Position numbers and translations under genes: made by a program | Source: Nitrospirota bacterium | GTDB lineage: Bacteria > Nitrospirota > Thermodesulfovibrionia > Thermodesulfovibrionales > Dissulfurispiraceae | Direction: 5' to 3' | Length of the DNA: 47,752 bases | Assembly (NCBI GenBank): GCA_021847795.1 | Contig: JAJZPZ010000009.1 | Span: forward strand, 1 to 47,752 | In this document: one piece after another, positions 9,671 to 46,774 of the stretch | Numbering within the stretch: position 1 is the stretch's first letter | How the letters are laid out: each line of letters begins with the position of its first letter | Notes under the pieces: generated by a model | What the model saw: only the letters and a program-made list of their open reading frames with translations | Database searches by the model: none | What the model was told of the DNA's origin: nothing

Positions 9671-9792
9671 AAGGATGAAAATAAAGGATGAAGGCTGAAG
9701 GATGAAGATTGAAATGAAGAACAGCAGGAAGAATGGCCGGGAAAGCGCTGCCGTACCGTTTTTCAACCTTCATCCCTCGTCCTTCAATCTTA
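9671..9792. repeat. Family C mirror repeat between ftsA and ftsZ
   Basis: The left arm (AAGGATGAAGGCTGAAGG type, 9671-9719) is complementary to the right arm (TTCAACCTTCATCCCTCG, 9757-9792). Together they can fold into a long imperfect hairpin in the ftsA-ftsZ mRNA. The element starts at the ftsA stop and ends just before the ftsZ ribosome-binding site. Confidence 0.85.
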
Positions 9793-11137: not shown

Positions 11138-11255
11138 AAGACAGTGACTCTAAAGACAGTAACAAGTTAATAGTAACAAGTAACGAGTTAAAGACTAACG
11201 ACTCCAAAAACTCGTCACTCGTTACTCGTTACTGATAAGGTTAGTCGTTACTGTA
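11138..11255. repeat. Family B mirror repeat after ftsZ
   Basis: Units such as AGTAACAAGTAACGAGTTAA on the left are mirrored by ACTCGTCACTCGTTACTCG on the right around a central CTCCAAAAACTCG. It begins directly at the ftsZ stop and ends about 7 bases before the next start codon. It therefore replaces any ordinary ribosome-binding region there. Confidence 0.88.
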
Positions 11256-11261
11256 GCCGTC

Positions 11262-12953
11262 ATGGATCGTAAGCTGGTCGAAAAAGCAAAAGCACTCCTT
11301 TCAAAAGAACAGGGCACTGTCTATAAAGATCCCGGCGGAAAAATCAGCCTCTGCCTTGTTTATCCCAACACATACCATGTCGGCATGTCGAATCTCGGTT
11401 TCCAGGGTATATACGGGCTCCTCAATGCACGGGACGATGTGGTTTGCGAGAGGGCGTTTTTTCCTGACGGAGATGATGTCGAGATCTACCGGAGGACAGG
11501 GACCCCGGTCTTTTCGCTTGAATCAGGCAGGCCGCTGGACAGGTTCGACATAGTTGCTTTTTCCGTGTCCTTTGAAAATGATTATCCTAACATCCTCAAG
11601 ATACTGGACATTGCCAGGGTCCCCGCGCTCCCGTCGAAGAGGAATGAATTCCACCCGCTGATTATAGGAGGCGGTGTTTGCCTGTCCTTCAACCCAGAGC
11701 CGGTCTCGCCCGTGTTCGACATGATTTTCATCGGGGAGGCGGAAGAGTCCCTGAACGAGTTCCTCGACATGTACGGACATGAGATGGGACAACAGGAGGT
11801 CCCCCCGGGAGCCCGGGGCGCAGGGGGCCGGGCCGGAGGGTTTCACGGGCGGCTTAAAAGAAGCGCAGTGCGTATCGAAGGCGTTTATGTGCCGGAATTT
11901 TATTCCGTGGACTACGATGCAGAAGGGAGAATATCAGGAAGGACCGCGTCTAACGGGGCCCCTGAAACGGTCAGGAGGCGCTTTATCAAGGACCTGGCGC
12001 AATCTCCGGTTACAACGGCAATAGTCACGCCTGAATCGGAATTCTCCGGTATGTATCTTGTCGAGGCAATGAGAGGCTGCCCGTGGAACTGCAGGTTTTG
12101 CCTGGTCGGGCATGTTTACAGCCCGCCAAGGAGAAAGCCCCTGGACAGCATCCTTGCAGAGATAAACAGGGCGAGGGAGACAACAACAAAGGTGGGCATA
12201 ATAGGGCCTTCCCTTACGGACTACCCTTACATGGAAGATATACTATGCATCGAGGGCGTCGATTTTTCCATAACATCGCTGCGGGCGAGTGAAAAAAGCG
12301 CCGGGCTTGTCGAGCTTCTGAAGGGACACAAGAGCGTTTCCATTGCGCCTGAGGCAGGCACCGAGCGTATGCGCAGGATCATCAATAAAAGGATAACGGA
12401 GAAAGACATCCTGGACACTGCAAAGCTTATCCTGGATGCCGGGATCGAGAACCTGCGCCTTTATTTTATGATAGGCCTCCCTGCGGAAACCATGGAAGAT
12501 GTTTCAGGCATTGTCGAGCTTGTAAAGAAAATAAGGGGGTTTTCAGGCAGGAACTCTCTCATATTGAGTGTCAGCACCTTTGTCCCCAAGCCCTTTACTC
12601 CTTTTCAGTGGCACTCCATGGAGCCTCTCAACAGCGTTAAAGAGAAGCTGCATTTCATCAAAAAGGCCCTCAGGAACCTCAGGGGCGTTAAAGTATTTCA
12701 CGATGTGCCGAAATTCGCCCATATGCAGGGATTGTTTTCCCGGGGAGACAGGCGGGTCTTCAGTGTGCTGGAGTTCATGGCCGATACGGATGACTGGGTA
12801 AAGGCCTGCTCAGCAGCGGACGTGGACAGGGATTTTTACCTTTTCAGGAACAAAGAGTTCGGCGAGATGCTTCCCTGGGACTTTATCGATACCGGGATAT
12901 CAAAACAAAAACTATGGGACGAATATACCGAAGCGCTTTCCCTCCAGGGGTAA
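11262..12953 (+). CDS. B12-binding-domain radical SAM protein, function unknown
   Basis: Cytoplasmic radical SAM enzyme of the family with an N-terminal cobalamin-binding-like fold (residues about 20-185, PNTYHVGMSNLGFQ) and a radical SAM core. The 4Fe-4S motif CxxxCxxC is seen as CPWNCRFC near residue 275. GPSLTDYP, SIAPEAGTERMRR and FMIGLPAETMED follow, as in this family. The substrate cannot be read from sequence. Related proteins are often annotated only as radical SAM. The upstream 125 bases are a family B repeat, and no Shine-Dalgarno is visible, so the start is uncertain. GTEGVY-like or methylthiotransferase activity is possible but not supported. Confidence 0.85.
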   Translation: MDRKLVEKAKALLSKEQGTVYKDPGGKISLCLVYPNTYHVGMSNLGFQGIYGLLNARDDVVCERAFFPDGDDVEIYRRTGTPVFSLESGRPLDRFDIVAFSVSFENDYPNILKILDIARVPALPSKRNEFHPLIIGGGVCLSFNPEPVSPVFDMIFIGEAEESLNEFLDMYGHEMGQQEVPPGARGAGGRAGGFHGRLKRSAVRIEGVYVPEFYSVDYDAEGRISGRTASNGAPETVRRRFIKDLAQSPVTTAIVTPESEFSGMYLVEAMRGCPWNCRFCLVGHVYSPPRRKPLDSILAEINRARETTTKVGIIGPSLTDYPYMEDILCIEGVDFSITSLRASEKSAGLVELLKGHKSVSIAPEAGTERMRRIINKRITEKDILDTAKLILDAGIENLRLYFMIGLPAETMEDVSGIVELVKKIRGFSGRNSLILSVSTFVPKPFTPFQWHSMEPLNSVKEKLHFIKKALRNLRGVKVFHDVPKFAHMQGLFSRGDRRVFSVLEFMADTDDWVKACSAADVDRDFYLFRNKEFGEMLPWDFIDTGISKQKLWDEYTEALSLQG

Positions 12954-14109: not shown

Positions 14110-14190
14110 ACGAAGCAAACGACAAATCCGAAATCCGAATATCTAAATCCTAAACAATATCTAAATTCAAAATGCTCCAAACACTTTGTC
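14110..14190. repeat. Family A half-element (left arm)
   Basis: A run of AAATCCGAAATCCGAATATC-type units directly after the L,D-transpeptidase stop. Other family A copies have a complementary right arm within about 60 bases, but here the right arm is missing locally. A matching right-arm type sequence is found at 18891-18960. Confidence 0.8.
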
Positions 14191-18829: not shown

Positions 18830-18877
18830 CGGCGCCTGGCTTGCAGATGTGCAAATGCATAAATGCAAGCCAGGCAC
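18830..18877. repeat. REP-like hairpin, copy 2
   Basis: GGCGCCTGGCTTGCA pairs with TGCAAGCCAGGCAC across a short spacer. It resembles the hairpin at 14196-14260 with a compensatory pair change, and together the two bracket the chemotaxis block. Confidence 0.75.
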
Positions 18878-18890
18878 TTTGAATGCTGAC

Positions 18891-18960
18891 ACGTTTTGGA
18901 TTTGGGTCATTGGGATTTCGGATTTGTTTGGAATTTGGTGCTTGGGATTTGGCGCTTGCT
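18891..18960. repeat. Family A half-element (right arm)
   Basis: GGATTTGGGTCATTGGGATTT-type units without a local complementary left arm. It lies directly behind the stop of the minus-strand TPR gene. Its orientation is opposite to the half-element at 14110-14190. Confidence 0.8.
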
Positions 18961-30989: not shown

Positions 30990-31112
30990 CAAATCCGAAA
31001 TCCTAATATCTGAATCCTGAACAAATTCAAATGACCGAAAATCAAAACGTTTTGAACGTTTGAGTTTGTAATTTCGATATTGTTCGGGATTTAGTATTTC
31101 GGATTTAGAATT
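30990..31112. repeat. Family A mirror repeat between psd and pssA
   Basis: A complete element. The left arm AAATCCGAAATCCTAATATC meets the right arm GATATTGTTCGGGATTTAG around an AAACGTTTTGAACGTTT centre. It can form a long hairpin. The psd stop codon TAA is itself part of the repeat (read on the minus strand as TTCTAAATCCGAAAT). Confidence 0.88.
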
Positions 31113-31749
31113 TCTCCTTGTTTATTCTCCCCAGGATGGTTTCTCCTGCCTTTACCTTGTCGCCTAATTTTACCTTAATTTCCGTTTTGGGTGGGAGAAA
31201 AATGTCGAGCCGCGAACTGAACTTTATCATGCCGTAGCGCTCCCCTTTTTTCAGGGAATCTCCGGGTCTTACCCTGCAGACTGCGCGCCGGGCAATGGCC
31301 CCGGCCACCTGCCGCACCAGCACTTTATAAAAAGCGCCCTTCAGGAGCATGGCGATGTTCTCATTCATCAGTGACGCCTCGGGTTTGAAGGCGGAAAGGA
31401 ACTTCCCGGGCGTATGGACTACGGCTTCTACTGTCCCGTCGCAGGGGGCCCTGTTGACATGGACGTTCAGGGGCGACATGAAAATGCTGATCTCAACGGC
31501 ATTGCCCTGCAGATATTTCTCCTCAAGGACCTGCTGTATCTGGATGACCCGGCCGTCTGCAGGAGACACGAAGATATCGTCCTCTGCAGGAGTCGCTCTT
31601 TCCGGGTCCCTGAAAAAATAGAACATGAAGAGGAGCAGGATGAAAGGGACAACTGCAGGCGCTGCAGATCCGATAAAGTAAGCGACTGCAGTGAGCGCCG
31701 CAAAAAAAACGATGAAGGGATACCCTTCGGGTGCAAATTTCATTTTCAT
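31105..31749 (-). CDS. psd: Phosphatidylserine decarboxylase (short, archaetidylserine-type)
   Basis: Pyruvoyl enzyme that decarboxylates phosphatidylserine to phosphatidylethanolamine at the inner membrane. Two membrane segments lie near the N-terminus, followed by FVSPADGRV, the HVNRAP motif and the C-terminal self-cleavage site. In this family the proenzyme is normally cut between Gly and Ser (GS). Here the position reads KFSSRLD (residues 178-179), so the Gly is replaced by Ser. The codons AGT TCG are clear in the sequence. The length of 214 aa is usual for the short form. The last codons and the stop run into a family A repeat. Confidence 0.92.
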   Translation of the reverse strand: MKMKFAPEGYPFIVFFAALTAVAYFIGSAAPAVVPFILLLFMFYFFRDPERATPAEDDIFVSPADGRVIQIQQVLEEKYLQGNAVEISIFMSPLNVHVNRAPCDGTVEAVVHTPGKFLSAFKPEASLMNENIAMLLKGAFYKVLVRQVAGAIARRAVCRVRPGDSLKKGERYGMIKFSSRLDIFLPPKTEIKVKLGDKVKAGETILGRINKEKF

Positions 31750-31763
31750 AAATTATATACCAT

Positions 31764-31936
31764 CAGTGACAAGTAACCTCTTTAGTAACGAGTAACATCA
31801 ACAACAGTAACGAGTAACAAGTAAAGGATCTGAAGACAGTGACAAGTGACGAGTCTGAAGGCAGTGACGAGTTTTTAGAGTCTTTAGTCTTTAACTTGTT
31901 ACTTGTTACTTGTGACTGTCTTTAGAGTTACTGTTG
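31764..31936. repeat. Family B mirror repeat between ilvC and psd
   Basis: AGTGACAAGTAACCTC-type units begin right behind the ilvC stop (minus strand). Over a core of about 100 bases this element is nearly identical to the reverse complement of the family B element at 36494-36668, with one mismatch seen in the core. Confidence 0.9.
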
Positions 31937-36493: not shown

Positions 36494-36668
36494 AAAGGCA
36501 GTAACAAGTAACTCTAAAGACAGTGACAAGTCACAAGTAACAAGTAACAAGTTAAAGACTAAAGACTCTAAAAACTCGTCACTGCCTTCAGACTCGTCAC
36601 TTGTCACTGTCTTCGGATCCTTTACTTGTTACTTGTCACTAAAGAGGTTACTTGTTACTGCCTTCAGC
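36494..36668. repeat. Family B mirror repeat after the TrxR-fusion gene
   Basis: Reverse complement of the element at 31764-31936 over most of its length. It lies 34 bases behind the reductase stop and fills nearly the whole gap up to the NifU-like gene promoter (TATAAT at 36682). Confidence 0.9.
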
Positions 36669-40036: not shown

Positions 40037-40047
40037 AGGGGAACGGC

Positions 40048-40222
40048 AAATCCGAAATCCTAATTTCTAAATCCTAAACAAATCCCAATGACCAAAGTCC
40101 AAAACGGTTTTGAGCATTTGGATTTAGTATTTAGATATTGTTTGGAATTTCGTGCTTGGGATTTGGAGTTTGCCGTTTGTTCGGGATTTGGAAATTAGTG
40201 CTTCGGATTTGTCTTTCAGCGG
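40048..40222. repeat. Family A mirror repeat before the D-aminoacylase gene
   Basis: A complete element whose left arm AAATCCGAAATCCTAATTTC and right arm GGGATTTGGAAATTAG flank a centre AAAACGGTTTTGAG. It begins 11 bases behind the EcfT-like stop and ends at the ribosome-binding site of the next gene. Confidence 0.9.
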
Positions 40223-41901: not shown

Positions 41902-42669
41902 ATGCAGCCGGTCATCGGCATTGCCTGCGACATGGACGACGAAGTGTTCAGGCTCAGGCGGAATTATGTTTCTGCAATAACTGATGCAGGCGGAATCCCG
42001 TTGGTGATCCCCCCTTCGGCAAAGGATTGCAATATAACCCGGATAGCGGATATTATCAGCGGACTCCTCCTGCCCGGAGGCGGAGACCTGCCCCCGGAGT
42101 ATTATGGAGAGGAGCTTTCCGTGCCCCGGGAGTGCCTGATATCTGTAAGGAAAGAGAGGATTGAATGGGAACTCGCGCTGCTGAAAGAGGCAATGAAAAG
42201 GGAGCTGCCTGTTCTGGGCATATGCCTCGGCATGCAGCTCATCAATGTTGCGCTCGGAGGAGACCTTTACCAGGACATCAACCTTCAGGTCCCCGGAGCC
42301 GGTGACCACAAAAAAGGCGCTCATGCAATAAAAGTCAGCCGGGCTTTTCTTTCAACCTTCAGTCTTCAACCTTCAGCCTTTGCCGTCAATTCCTACCACC
42401 ACCAGGCGGTAAAGACCCTTGCCGGGGGCCTGGAAGCGGATGCGGTTTCTGAAGACGGAATAACCGAGGGGTTTATCAAAAGGGATTATCCCTTTCTCGC
42501 AGGGGTACAATGGCACCCTGAGCGGCCCCTCTGTAAACAGACCTCTCCGGGAGCACAGGAAGAGGCATCGCGACTTTTGTTAAACTCCCGGAGTTGTGAT
42601 AAACTTTCAGTAAAGATATTCGCGACCTTCATCGAAAAGGCGAGGATAGGGAGAAATTCTAAATCCTAA
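41902..42669 (+). CDS. Class I glutamine-amidotransferase-fold peptidase C26 (PuuD-like)
   Basis: Gamma-glutamyl hydrolase type enzyme acting on gamma-glutamyl conjugates such as gamma-glutamyl-GABA. The nucleophile Cys lies in VLGICLGMQLIN and the His in VQWHPER. The N-terminus MQPVIGIACDMDD is typical. GGGGAG before the ATG supports 41902, and the track's longer start is translated repeat. Two segments derive from repeats: in-frame family C codes for STFSLQPSAF just before the conserved NSYHHQAV segment, and the last residues and stop lie in a family A repeat. Catalytic residues are intact, so activity is likely. Confidence 0.9.
   Translation: MQPVIGIACDMDDEVFRLRRNYVSAITDAGGIPLVIPPSAKDCNITRIADIISGLLLPGGGDLPPEYYGEELSVPRECLISVRKERIEWELALLKEAMKRELPVLGICLGMQLINVALGGDLYQDINLQVPGAGDHKKGAHAIKVSRAFLSTFSLQPSAFAVNSYHHQAVKTLAGGLEADAVSEDGITEGFIKRDYPFLAGVQWHPERPLCKQTSPGAQEEASRLLLNSRSCDKLSVKIFATFIEKARIGRNSKS
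42349..42382. repeat. Family C repeat inside the C26 peptidase gene, in frame
   Basis: TTTCAACCTTCAGTCTTCAA and the following units code for LSTFSLQPSAF. Both the DNA units and the reading frame match the insert in murD at 1883-1916. Confidence 0.87.
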
Positions 42670-42800
42670 GCACGAAACTCCAAACAATATCAAAATACTA
42701 AATCCAAATGCGCAAAACCGTTTTGGACTTTGGTCATTGGGATTTGTTTAGGATTTAGATATTCGGATTTCGTGCTTGTTATTTATTTGGGATTTGAAGC
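42655..42800. repeat. Family A mirror repeat after the C26 peptidase gene
   Basis: A complete element. The left arm TTCTAAATCCTAAGCACG overlaps the last codons and stop of the C26 gene. The right arm GGATTTAGATATTCGG and further GGGATTTG units mirror it, around the centre AAAACCGTTTTGG. Confidence 0.9.
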
Positions 42801-42815
42801 TTTCCGCTGGAGCTC

Positions 42816-43871
42816 ATGTCGATCAACAGGTTTTACCTAATCACCATGGTTGCCCTGGTCTTGGGGCTGGGTTATTTGACATTCCAGATAATCAGGCCCT
42901 TTCTGGCCCCTATAGGCTGGGCCGTTGTCCTTTCGATAGTGTTCTATCCCCTGTATGTTTTTATCCTGAGGTATGTGAGATGGAAGTCCATAGCCTCACT
43001 GATTACGTTGGTTGTCATAATACTGGTCATTATAGGGCCTTTTTCCTCCATCACTTATCTGCTGGTCAATGAGATCCAGAATATCCCGGCCTCTCTCGGC
43101 GGCGGGACGATTGAGTCGGTAAGGGGGCTGTTCAGCCATCCGGGTATCGAATACATCGTGAACAAAATCGGCTCTCTTTTAAACATCCCGATTACCGGAG
43201 CGGAGTTGAATAAATCCATTGCCGCTTATGCTTCGCAGATAGGCAATGAGCTGCTCGGGCGTATTCCTGTCGGATTGGGGAACGTGGCGTCGGTCGCCGC
43301 GAATTTTATTCTTATGGCCTTTTCCATTTTTTTCATTCTGCGGGACGGGGCTGATTTCCTGGAAAGGAGCAGCAATTATATGCCTTTTTCAGCGGCGCAG
43401 AAGAAAAGGCTCGTCACGCAGATCAGGGACATTGTCGTCTCAACGATTTACGGCGGGGTCATAGTGGCGATTCTCCAGGGCATTATCGGAGGTGTCTCCT
43501 ATGCGCTGCTCGGCCTAAGCTCTCCTGTTCTCTGGGGGCTGGCGACTGCGATATCGTCTTTTATTCCTTTGCTCGGAACCTTTGCCGTATGGGGGATCCT
43601 TTCCGCTTATCTTTTCTTTACGGGAGCGGCAGGGAAGGGCATTATCCTGGTAATCATCGGGATATTCGGGATCAGCATGGTCGACAATATCCTGAAACCC
43701 GTACTGATAGGGGCCAGGACAAGAATGCATGTTCTGGTGATTTTTTTCAGCGTCCTGGGCGGGATAAATCAGTTCGGGCTTATCGGGCTTATTATGGGTC
43801 CCCTGGTAGTGGCTCTTTTCTTTTCAGTTATAGAAATCTTCAGAAATTTTGAAGGAGGGCACCATGCTTGA
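42816..43871 (+). CDS. AI-2E family (PerM-like) membrane transporter
   Basis: Polytopic inner-membrane protein of the AI-2 exporter superfamily, 351 aa. Two or three N-terminal membrane segments precede a soluble insert (about 95-150). Then come the conserved QGIIGGVSYALLGLSSPVLWG segment, SSFIPLLGTFAVW, and the C-terminal GARTRMHVLVIFFSVLGGIN and GPLVVAL motifs. Members export AI-2, sodium or other solutes, and the substrate cannot be inferred. The end overlaps the next gene by 8 bases, which suggests co-translation. Confidence 0.92.
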   Translation: MSINRFYLITMVALVLGLGYLTFQIIRPFLAPIGWAVVLSIVFYPLYVFILRYVRWKSIASLITLVVIILVIIGPFSSITYLLVNEIQNIPASLGGGTIESVRGLFSHPGIEYIVNKIGSLLNIPITGAELNKSIAAYASQIGNELLGRIPVGLGNVASVAANFILMAFSIFFILRDGADFLERSSNYMPFSAAQKKRLVTQIRDIVVSTIYGGVIVAILQGIIGGVSYALLGLSSPVLWGLATAISSFIPLLGTFAVWGILSAYLFFTGAAGKGIILVIIGIFGISMVDNILKPVLIGARTRMHVLVIFFSVLGGINQFGLIGLIMGPLVVALFFSVIEIFRNFEGGHHA

Positions 43872-45051
43872 CAGGGCGGAGCTGAAAGAGCTTGCATCGA
43901 TGGACGGCAAGGGCAGCTATTACGTGAGCCTGTACTTTAATGTCGACCCCATTCTGAATAAAAGAGGCGATTACGACATACACTTCAAAAACATGGTGAA
44001 GAGCAAAATTGAATCTCTTGATAAAGAGCAGTATAAAAGGGTAAAAGCCGATATCGATAAAATCACCGATTATGTCTTTTCCAACAGGAGAATGTTTAAA
44101 AAGGGCCTTGTCCTGATAAGCTCCGCAGGCAATTCCGTCTGGAAAGTGTACCATCTCGGGGTCCCGGTGCGGAACGAGCTGGTTATCGGCAAGACACCTT
44201 ACACGGAGCCCCTGGCTGATGTGCTGGACAATTATGAAAAATTCGCCGTGCTGCTTGTAGAGAAGGAGGATGCAAGGATCTTCGTCATCCATCTCGGAGA
44301 GATTGTGGAATACAGCGAGATCCATACTTCCGGCGTGCCGGGGAAGCATAAGCAGGATGTCTGGTTTGCACTTTCCAAAACTGCCGCCACGAAGCATATG
44401 GCAAATGCCGGAAAAGGGGGGCTTGGAGTCACCGGACTGAGGACTGACCACTACCAGAGGCACATAGACACCCATGTAAGAATGCATGTAGAAGATGCGA
44501 TTAAAGGGCTCGACTCCTTTGTGGAGGGGGAGCGCATCGGCAGGATCATTATCGGCGGCTCTGACGAGGCCGTTTCAATGACTAAGGGGCTGCTTCATAA
44601 GACGATCCTCGATAAAGTGGCGGGTGATGTGAAAGCAGAGATGTTTGCAACTCCGGACGAGGTCCTTAAAATAACGATGCCCATCGTTGAGGCATACGAG
44701 AGGAAGCAGGAAGAAGAGACTGTCGGAAAGCTGATCACCCTGGCATTGAGCGGCGGGGCTGCCGTATTGGGGCCGGCTGATGTAATTGCGGCGCTCCGGG
44801 AGAAAAGGGTGATGAGTCTTGTCATACTTAAGGACCTGCATGCAGAAGGTTTTGTTTGCGGAAACTGCGGGCTCCTGAGCGCCCGGAAGGTTGAACCCTG
44901 CCCTGCATGCGGGGGGAAGATGGAGCACGTTGATTACCTGGCCGATTCGGCCGGAGAGCTTGCGATCCGGCAGGGGGCGATCATTGAAGTGGTCAATGAC
45001 AACAAGCAGCTGGCGGAGCATGGCGGCATAGGGGCGTTTTTGAGATTTTAA
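43864..45051 (+). CDS. Bacterial eRF1-like (baeRF-type) protein with zinc ribbon
   Basis: A 395-residue soluble protein with the three-part layout of archaeal/eukaryotic release factor 1. An N-terminal domain comes first (1-about 120). A central RNase-H-like domain follows (about 125-260), where GKGGLGVTGLRTDHYQRHI occupies the place of the GGQ peptidyl-tRNA loop. A C-terminal L7Ae-like domain (from about 270) carries a C4 zinc ribbon (CGNCG ... CPACGG), as in archaeal aRF1. A GGQ itself is absent (GGLG). GAAGGAGG before the ATG supports 43864. Proteins of this class are thought to act on stalled ribosomes. That is family-based inference. Confidence 0.82.
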   Translation: MLDRAELKELASMDGKGSYYVSLYFNVDPILNKRGDYDIHFKNMVKSKIESLDKEQYKRVKADIDKITDYVFSNRRMFKKGLVLISSAGNSVWKVYHLGVPVRNELVIGKTPYTEPLADVLDNYEKFAVLLVEKEDARIFVIHLGEIVEYSEIHTSGVPGKHKQDVWFALSKTAATKHMANAGKGGLGVTGLRTDHYQRHIDTHVRMHVEDAIKGLDSFVEGERIGRIIIGGSDEAVSMTKGLLHKTILDKVAGDVKAEMFATPDEVLKITMPIVEAYERKQEEETVGKLITLALSGGAAVLGPADVIAALREKRVMSLVILKDLHAEGFVCGNCGLLSARKVEPCPACGGKMEHVDYLADSAGELAIRQGAIIEVVNDNKQLAEHGGIGAFLRF

Positions 45052-45053
45052 GA

Positions 45054-45230
45054 AAGCAACGAGTGACAAGTAACGAGTTGAGATAAGCTTACATGCAGTT
45101 ATGATTGTTATAGGTGTGATATATTAGACAAGTATGATTTTCGCTCATAGTGCGCGTAATACGTTCCGTGGTAATTCTTTTGTGAGTATGTTTTTTTTAC
45201 TCGTTACTCGTTACTTGTTGCTCGTTGCTG
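45054..45230. repeat. Family B mirror repeat spanning the start of the binding-protein gene
   Basis: The left arm (GCAACGAGTGACAAGTAACG, 45054-45080) is complementary to the right arm (ACTCGTTACTCGTTACTTG, 45197-45230). The loop holds a TGATATATT promoter-like sequence and the start codon of the next gene. The right arm is coding. Confidence 0.87.
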
Positions 45231-46774
45231 TTTTCTCAGGTCTCCTTTCCTGCACTCCGGCCAAGCGCTCCTATGACTATATCTTCTACCGGATGAATGC
45301 AGATCCTACCACGCTCGATCCGGCACTTATTGTCGATGTCCCCGGGGCATCGATTGCTGCAAAGCTCTTTAACGGACTCGTAAGGCTCAATGAAAGCCTT
45401 GACATTTCTCCTGATATAGCCGGGAAATGGGAGATCTCGGGAGATGGGTTGAAGTACAGGTTCTCCCTCAGGAAAGGGGTAAAGTTCTCCAACGGCCGGG
45501 AGGTCAGGGCAGGTGACTTCAAATATTCCTTTGAGAGGATACTCGAGCCCCGGACAAAATCCCCCAATATCTGGGTTTTCGACAAAGTGAAAGGGACAAA
45601 AGAGTACCGTGAAGGGCATGCAAAGGAAGTAAGCGGCTTTAAAGTGATTGATGATTACACCTTTGAAATCCGGCTGAAAAGGCCGTTCTCCCCGTTCCTG
45701 AGCATGCTCACCATGACTGCAGCTTATGTCGTCCCCCGGGAAGAGGTGAAAAAATGGGGTGTGGACTTTTCGAGCCATCCCGCAGGCGCCGGGCCTTTTG
45801 TCCTGGCACGGTGGTTGCCGAACAGGGAGGTGGCGCTGGAAAGGAGGAAGGGGTATTTTGAGGGCGCTGCAACCGTCAAGGGCATTGTATACAAAATCAT
45901 CCCTGAAGACCTGACAGCGATCACGGAGTTTGAGCTCGGGAACCTTGACGTGATCTCCCTTCCGGCATCGGCGTATGCGAAATTCAGAAACGACAGCAGG
46001 TGGAGCGGGCATATCCTGTCGCTGAAAGGATTGAATACCTACTATCTCGGCCTCAATGCATCTAAGCCCCCTCTCAACGACGTGGAACTCAGGAAGGCCG
46101 TCTCATACGCGCTGGACAGGAAAAAAATACTCGACACCTTTTACGAGGGAAGGGGCCGGCTTGCTGCCGGGCCTGTCCCCGACCTGCTGAGAAAGTGGGA
46201 CCTGGATGCCGGTCTCAGGGACCTCTATGGCTATTCTCCGGACAAGTCAAAGGATATAGTCAGGAAGAAGAGCAGGGGGGGCATCGACGTTGCCCTGTAC
46301 ATAACTGCGGACCCGGATGTTGTGGACCTGGCTGAGATCATCCAGTCCTACCTTGCGGATGTCGGGATTCGCGTGCATATAAAACAATTGGAATGGAGCG
46401 CGTATAAAGAGGCGATAAACAGGGGGGAGCCGGATATGTTCTGGCTCAGCTGGTGGGCCGATTACCCTGATGCCGAGAACTTCCTGTTCCCTCTTTTCCA
46501 CTCCTCGAATTTCGGCCCTGCAGGCAACAGGACACACTATGCCGACAAGGAAGTCGATGCCCTGATAGAGCAGGGGCAGTACTCTTTGAACAAGGGGGAA
46601 AGGGACCGCTGCTATAAGAGTGCAGAGGAGATCATCATACGAGATGCGCCATGGGTGCCCTTCTGGCACAGGACTGACTTTCTCGTCGTCCAGCCGTGGG
46701 TAAAAGGCTATAAGGTCTATCCCATCTATTCCATGGACAAGGGTATGGGCATAGACCTGGAACAGAAGAGGTAA
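45134..46774 (+). CDS. Oligopeptide/dipeptide ABC transporter substrate-binding lipoprotein (SBP_bac_5)
   Basis: Periplasmic lipid-anchored binding protein for peptides or similar ligands. The signal peptide ends in the lipobox GLLSC (Cys about 40). The SBP5 family pattern follows: MNADPTTLDPALIVD, RFSLRKGVKFSNGREVRAGDFKYSFERI, HPAGAGPFVL, LNDVELRKAVSYALDRKKIL and the C-terminal WWADYPDAENFLFPLF. The hydrophobic core of the signal (LLVTRYLLLVAVF) is read from a family B repeat arm. The start may be 45134, which includes two Arg, or 45188. No permease or ATPase genes are adjacent, so this is an orphan binding protein here. Confidence 0.9.
   Translation: MIFAHSARNTFRGNSFVSMFFLLVTRYLLLVAVFSGLLSCTPAKRSYDYIFYRMNADPTTLDPALIVDVPGASIAAKLFNGLVRLNESLDISPDIAGKWEISGDGLKYRFSLRKGVKFSNGREVRAGDFKYSFERILEPRTKSPNIWVFDKVKGTKEYREGHAKEVSGFKVIDDYTFEIRLKRPFSPFLSMLTMTAAYVVPREEVKKWGVDFSSHPAGAGPFVLARWLPNREVALERRKGYFEGAATVKGIVYKIIPEDLTAITEFELGNLDVISLPASAYAKFRNDSRWSGHILSLKGLNTYYLGLNASKPPLNDVELRKAVSYALDRKKILDTFYEGRGRLAAGPVPDLLRKWDLDAGLRDLYGYSPDKSKDIVRKKSRGGIDVALYITADPDVVDLAEIIQSYLADVGIRVHIKQLEWSAYKEAINRGEPDMFWLSWWADYPDAENFLFPLFHSSNFGPAGNRTHYADKEVDALIEQGQYSLNKGERDRCYKSAEEIIIRDAPWVPFWHRTDFLVVQPWVKGYKVYPIYSMDKGMGIDLEQKR

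Follow-up and report, generated by a model that had tools for sequence, protein, structure and literature searches.

The palindromic repeat that we call family B has in all likelihood spread throughout this Nitrospirota genome, and at the site described here one of its arms very probably forms the coding core of a signal peptide that was rebuilt on an already existing lipoprotein. The window analyzed (47,752 nucleotides) is the entire contig C30 of a metagenome-assembled draft genome, G000 (3.54 Mb in 273 contigs, 97.8% complete); features are located in Table 1. In a profile search, the focal open reading frame matches SBP_bac_5 (PF00496, E value of 2.1e-88, residues 91 to 460), and its translation begins with MIFAHSARNTFRGNSFVSMFFLLVTRYLLLVAVFSGLLSC. 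Its n-region charge of +3, a core with a Kyte-Doolittle mean of 2.80, and the lipobox LLS-C40 make the protein a putative signal peptidase II substrate with predicted lipidation, and its export and lipidation would be expected to work; a single arginine (R26) falls within the nominal hydrophobic stretch. The left arm adjoins the stop codon of the upstream baeRF_family10 gene, and the congener (genome G001) has an identical gene order, including a baeRF_family10-like upstream neighbor.

Table 1. Features of the focal site and other family B elements in the window
Feature	Position	Strand	Remarks
Other family B element	11143..11253	.	Intergenic, just before ORF at 11262
Other family B element	31764..31934	.	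Intergenic
Other family B element	36507..36660	.	Intergenic, inverted relative to 31764-31934
baeRF_family10 release-factor-like protein gene, upstream neighbor	43849..45051	+	PF18854, E 7.4e-26
Left arm, family B heptads (ACTYGTY)n read on - strand	45050..45078	-	Upstream of start codon
Inter-arm DNA: promoter, start codon, n-region	45079..45198	.	Single-copy, non-element
Extended -10 box TGA-TATATT	45117..45125	+	8 nt before ATG45134
OppA/DppA-like solute-binding lipoprotein gene	45134..46774	+	546 aa, start ATG45134 (translation)
Right arm, family B heptads, translated inside signal peptide (LLVTRYLLLVAVF region)	45199..45234	+	
Predicted hydrophobic core LLLVAVFSGLL, mostly repeat-derived	45215..45247	+	Kyte-Doolittle mean 2.80
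Lipobox cysteine C40 (LLS-C)	45251..45253	+	Aligns with conserved SC of homologues

The first-pass annotation of this DNA had placed the right arm, translated as LLVTRYLLLVA, inside the lipoprotein signal and the left arm before the start codon, and both placements hold: codons 22 to 32 (45197 to 45229) of the frame opened by ATG45134 encode this peptide and coincide with the heptads, in frame and at most 8 codons before the lipobox cysteine, and the left arm lies upstream of ATG45134. The strict heptad array on the plus strand occupies 45199 to 45226 (ACTCGTT, ACTCGTT, ACTTGTT, and GCTCGTT) and runs on to about 45234. Signal peptides are rich in T and L, and a heptad-like pattern might in principle be a chance product of codon usage in a hydrophobic signal; however, the lag-7 self-similarity of the focal signal DNA reaches 23/28, compared with an average of 12.9 in codon shuffles (p of about 0.001), and the 20-mer focal pattern (ACTYGTYACTYGTYACTYGT, up to 2 mismatches) has 190 + 190 matches in the genome versus 1 + 0 for the reversed control (380 versus 1), which leaves chance a vanishingly small probability. 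The arm's length, genome specificity, and closeness to the lipobox cysteine (8 codons or fewer) mean that it is neither a product of chance nor a 5′ leader.

The arms at 45050 to 45078 and 45206 to 45234 are 86% complementary over 29 nt, although family B arms in opposite orientations are always complementary, such that pairing is no proof of a single element. The gap between them is about 120 nt (121 nt), as opposed to the usual 13 to 65 nt in other copies, in which gaps of 22 and 44 nt are the commonest, and the only significant match of the inter-arm DNA in the genome is to itself. This single-copy status rules out the inter-arm DNA as a canonical element loop. Given the atypical gap and the single-copy DNA within it, the description that fits the focal site best is native DNA with a family B arm on either side; it may be an insertion that is broken or composite.

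We examined about 70 proteins related to the focal one, encoded in Nitrospirota and Thermodesulfovibrionales-type genomes, and every clearly readable homologue has a lipoprotein signal that terminates with the conserved SC or a lipobox resembling it. In the congener, the signal at the matching place (MTWFKIPFIFLLFILLFSHSC) is free of the repeat. Since repeat-free homologues, the congener among them, already possess a signal there, the signal predates the repeat, and the comparison indicates that the repeat rebuilt or replaced a pre-existing lipoprotein signal, with no signal newly added. The first-pass annotation had held that the repeat either donated or replaced an export signal and had proposed this very comparison; replacement is the part that survives it, and donation is not. 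The Met-to-Cys distance is 39 in the focal signal versus 20 in that of the congener, making the former 19 residues longer, and residues 1 to 21 match neither the congener nor the element. The hydrophobicity and n-region charge of the focal signal are within or near the range of homologues, its core value of 2.80 falling inside the range of 2.12 to 3.42 seen in eleven of them. In the “opp” set, which was chosen without regard to the element, three members reach a p of about 0.001, namely, the focal gene and two homologues with other heptads. In two homologues, L089 and L100, other heptad-like runs occur upstream of the cysteine. A homologue from G041, a genome with 71 pattern matches, was considered as a second independent repeat-built signal in the focal family (L018, FIVTCYLLLIFTS); it is suggestive (lag-7 p of 0.078), and we make no claim for it.

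The extended -10 box next to ATG45134 has counterparts (TGN-TATAAT-like) 5 nt before the start in homologues from G001, G007, G002, G005, and G075; the variants are TGA-TATAAT-N5-ATG in the congener, TGC-TATAAT in G007 and G019, TGC-TATCAT in G002, TGC-TATTAT in G005, and TGG-TATAAT in G075. Its position beside ATG45134, as in these homologues, supports ATG45134 as the start codon and probably means that transcription begins downstream of the left arm; as far as promoter sequence can tell, the focal mRNA is probably leaderless or nearly so and lacks the left arm. An initiation at ATG45188 or GTG45182, which would yield a signal of 21 to 23 residues with the arm still as its core and leave residues 1 to 16 or 1 to 18 unmade, appears unlikely: the Met-to-Cys distance of 21 from ATG45188 does fit the homologues (about 15 to 25 in many), but neither codon is adjacent to a -10 box, whereas the box before ATG45134 is placed as in homologues, and the charge of the n-region would come down to R26 only, inside the nominal core.

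With the start codon lying between the arms, the first-pass annotation had also suggested that folding could control translation. The region from 45045 to 45245 folds well (-60.2 kcal/mol, z of -4.57), but an RNA starting at 45131 is predicted to form no arm-to-arm stem. For the site to act as an RNA regulator, in which the start codon would be hidden or freed by the stem, the mRNA would have to contain both arms, as any read-through transcript from the upstream gene does. The -10 box, however, is past the left arm and adjoins the ATG, as it does in homologues that lack the repeat; the DNA between the arms is native; the complementarity is a property of the family, with a 121-nt loop unseen in other copies; and the Rfam match is implausible and below threshold (MIR831, 18 bits against a cutoff of 100, rejected). 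The suggestion is thereby weakened: a regulatory hairpin is improbable, translational control by it is weakly supported, and such control is possible only on read-through transcripts.

Family B is a palindromic element of about 100 to 150 nt (~150 nt) with inverted arms composed of degenerate heptads, which in one orientation are stop-free in all three frames, reading (TRYSLLV)n, and on the other strand contain TAA or TGA in every frame. Because 7 × 3 = 21, an array of heptads gives the identical cyclic peptide in every frame of one strand; one orientation is therefore always translatable and, with an arginine followed by a hydrophobic run, reads as a signal peptide. Searching the genome with the element peptide recovers ~55 separate sites at an E value of ≤1e-3, ~38 of which, as counted from this peptide search, lie in uninterrupted frames of at least 150 codons. 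The element encodes a conserved peptide (of the KDSNELQVTSNELKTNDKDLSLSSDPLLVTRHSLLVTDEVTRHSSL type) with up to 97% identity to the query at strong sites, and four intragenic copies fold as hairpins (z of -3.8 to -6.9). Among the hosts that curated families could name are hemC, carB, bioD, dapF, cobB, folC, cbiD, murE, queA, ribF, nagA, lptD, ileS, gspD, flgH, gspK, aroC, mnmA, and genes for a CTP-transferase family protein and a RecN/SMC-type protein. In a residue-by-residue comparison with solved structures, the inserts are sharply delimited in HemC (residues 266 to 316, between positions 253 and 259 of 1ah5), AroC (341 to 369, between positions 292 and 294 of 1q1l), and DapF (149 to 188, between positions 140 and 141 of 9mro), with the flanks aligning on both sides in each case. 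Judged from these sequences, family B is for the most part a palindromic insertion element that codes for protein, a character that the initial reading of the window had missed. Element copies with in-frame stops, at C145:5085-5195 and C87:111-236 of the focal genome, are intergenic or in decayed genes. The arm motif is present in 16 of 80 relatives, but G001 has only 5 translated sites and the other relatives tested have 0 or 1. The coding form expanded recently and, for the most part, only in the focal genome.

As predicted from sequence, the export signals or leaders of at least 14 exported proteins or pseudopilins derive from the repeat. Besides the focal protein, those with a translated arm in the signal or leader are an M48 lipoprotein, FlgH, RlpA, a TPR lipoprotein, GspD, a SurA-like protein, LptD, a 108-amino-acid protein on contig C103, and five pseudopilins; a sixth pseudopilin (on C29) contains the element peptide but lacks a strict arm. 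FlgH, the second pseudopilin on C75, and GspJ and GspK on C256 have no start codon separating the repeat from the anchor and so can be made only by translating the repeat; in GspD, the only start between the two is a TTG inside the arm. These cases bear on the possibility that the focal repeat is a noncoding 5′ leader, with translation beginning inside or after the arm (e.g., at TTG45215 or TTG45218). N-terminal REPs have been noted as potential misannotations (PMC3733652), the arm does contain TTG codons, and neither ATG45134 nor ATG45188 is preceded by a strong Shine-Dalgarno sequence. Yet the only starts downstream of the arm's entry are the TTG codons at -11 and -12 from the cysteine, which leave 11 to 12 residues and zero positive charge before it, too short for a lipoprotein signal, as most homologues have 15 to 25, and other repeat-derived leaders offer no start between repeat and anchor. 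A leader of this kind is very improbable at the focal gene, and for several of the other genes the start-codon analysis answers the caution about misannotation.

In type II secretion operons (L107, C75:2000-7043; L151, C256:6000-11000), family B copies occupy the N termini of several consecutive pseudopilin genes and stop just short of the prepilin cleavage site (GFTLLEV); one copy is upstream of a GspF-like start. Heptad-built signal DNA recurs in the FlgH orthologues of G001, G017, G030, and G005 and in the M48 orthologues of G001, G030, and G005, some with different heptads (p of ≤0.01), although both families were picked because the copies in the focal genome carry the element, such that these figures speak to recurrence and not to a base rate. 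FlgH begins with related element peptides in G001 (L178, MKNSNELIVTSDELK) and in the focal genome (L153, C154, MKNSNSNDSNKLQVTSNKLK), suggesting that the FlgH insertion predates the separation of the two species; the heptads that make up the core differ between them. In other genera, FlgH and M48 signals are built from other heptads (L181, L182, L183, and L188; GGCTACTG, GTTTTGTCCTCTGT, and CTGCTTA types), which suggests that the order has several families of heptads.

The window itself contains further repeats. A second heptad-like palindromic family (TTTGGGATTTGG type) is present at 14116-14186, 18874-18959, 30990-31117, 40047-40219, and 42650-42804, with 93% complementarity between the copies at 40053-40171 and 42654-42772. 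The called starts of ORFs 18883, 40152, and 30992(-) lie in or next to copies of this family and are therefore doubtful. A third heptad family (CTTCAGCCTTCA type) occurs in both orientations, at 1882-1914, 9671-9791, and 42350-42394. Two GC-rich inverted-repeat pairs (33143-33174/33277-33308 and 37479-37512/37619-37652), with arms of 32 and 34 nt spaced about 100 nt apart, differ from the heptad families.

The closest parallel to family B is found in Rickettsia palindromic elements (RPEs) and Wolbachia palindromic elements, dispersed palindromes of ~100 to 150 bp that lie in frame in unrelated housekeeping genes and encode a conserved peptide (PMC10969869, PMC3767692); a similar process in other prokaryotes was considered conceivable (PMC10969869). 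Family B resembles RPEs in size (~100 to 150), hairpin folding, dispersal, in-frame insertion into conserved ORFs without breaking them, and a conserved coded peptide, and it enters queA and ileS, both of which are also listed as entered by palindromic elements (PMC3767692, Table 1). It differs from them in its free-living Nitrospirota host, its degenerate ACTYGTY heptads, the restriction of stop-free reading to one orientation, and its recurrent presence in signal peptides and in the leaders of prepilins; in the papers that we examined, we found no case of an export signal formed in this way. Its host being a member of the Nitrospirota, we do not file family B as an RPE and liken the two by their working mode, as given in descriptions of RPEs.

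REPs are likewise palindromic, high in copy number, and sometimes intragenic but measure 20 to 40 bp and are mostly extragenic (PMC3733652). GTAG/CGTC-tagged REPs are mobilized by RAYT Y1 transposases, and family B shares their palindromes and high copy number; being longer and, where the peptide query located it, largely intragenic, it falls outside the description of REP/BIME elements with a RAYT. A RAYT or Y1 transposase is at most a candidate mobilizer, as the numbers of Y1_Tnp genes do not correlate with element abundance: 13 in the focal genome, 0 in G003 (91 pattern matches), and 5 to 6 in G002 and G007 (no pattern matches). Cyanobacterial STRRs are heptanucleotide short tandem repeats in simple tandem arrays. 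They have the heptanucleotide unit in common with family B, which, in contrast, has a coding frame and fixed loops and arranges its imperfect heptads in inverted arms. The coding palindromes of Nematomorpha, inverted repeats within mitochondrial protein-coding genes (PMC6649704), are unlike family B in that they are long perfect repeats in animal mitochondria with both arms coding. In the literature searched, which largely lacked subscription papers, we found neither a published name for the heptad sequence nor a description of elements of this kind in Nitrospirota or serving as signal peptides.

The events at the focal gene can be pictured as follows. As the palindromic element spread through the genome, its stop-free orientation would have allowed it to be tolerated in frame in loops and at N termini, and it would have been retained because signal peptides and loops tolerate it. 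In the focal gene, the right arm would have replaced the former h-region of an existing lipoprotein signal, TR adding positive charge and YLLLVAVF supplying the hydrophobic core, with the lipobox and mature protein remaining the gene's own; translation would most likely proceed from ATG45134 on a leaderless transcript. We consider it about an even chance that the wider picture also applies: a free-living lineage with an RPE-like coding element, the heptads of which, with their arginine and hydrophobic run, form a ready-made export signal that has repeatedly rewritten signals and prepilin leaders, such that the turnover of signals is driven by selfish DNA.

To our knowledge, in-frame palindromic elements at such a scale are known mainly from obligate intracellular Rickettsiales and have been ascribed to their peculiar lifestyle. 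A free-living member of the Nitrospirota with dozens of them in core genes (hemC, aroC, dapF, carB, murE, and ileS) would make the phenomenon general and testable. Family B works like RPEs but in a different phylum, with an unrelated architecture and recurrent use in signal peptides. The export-signal cases would offer a concrete route from selfish DNA to a working part of a protein, and they are also a caution that automatic gene callers may put start codons in the wrong place in genomes of this kind.
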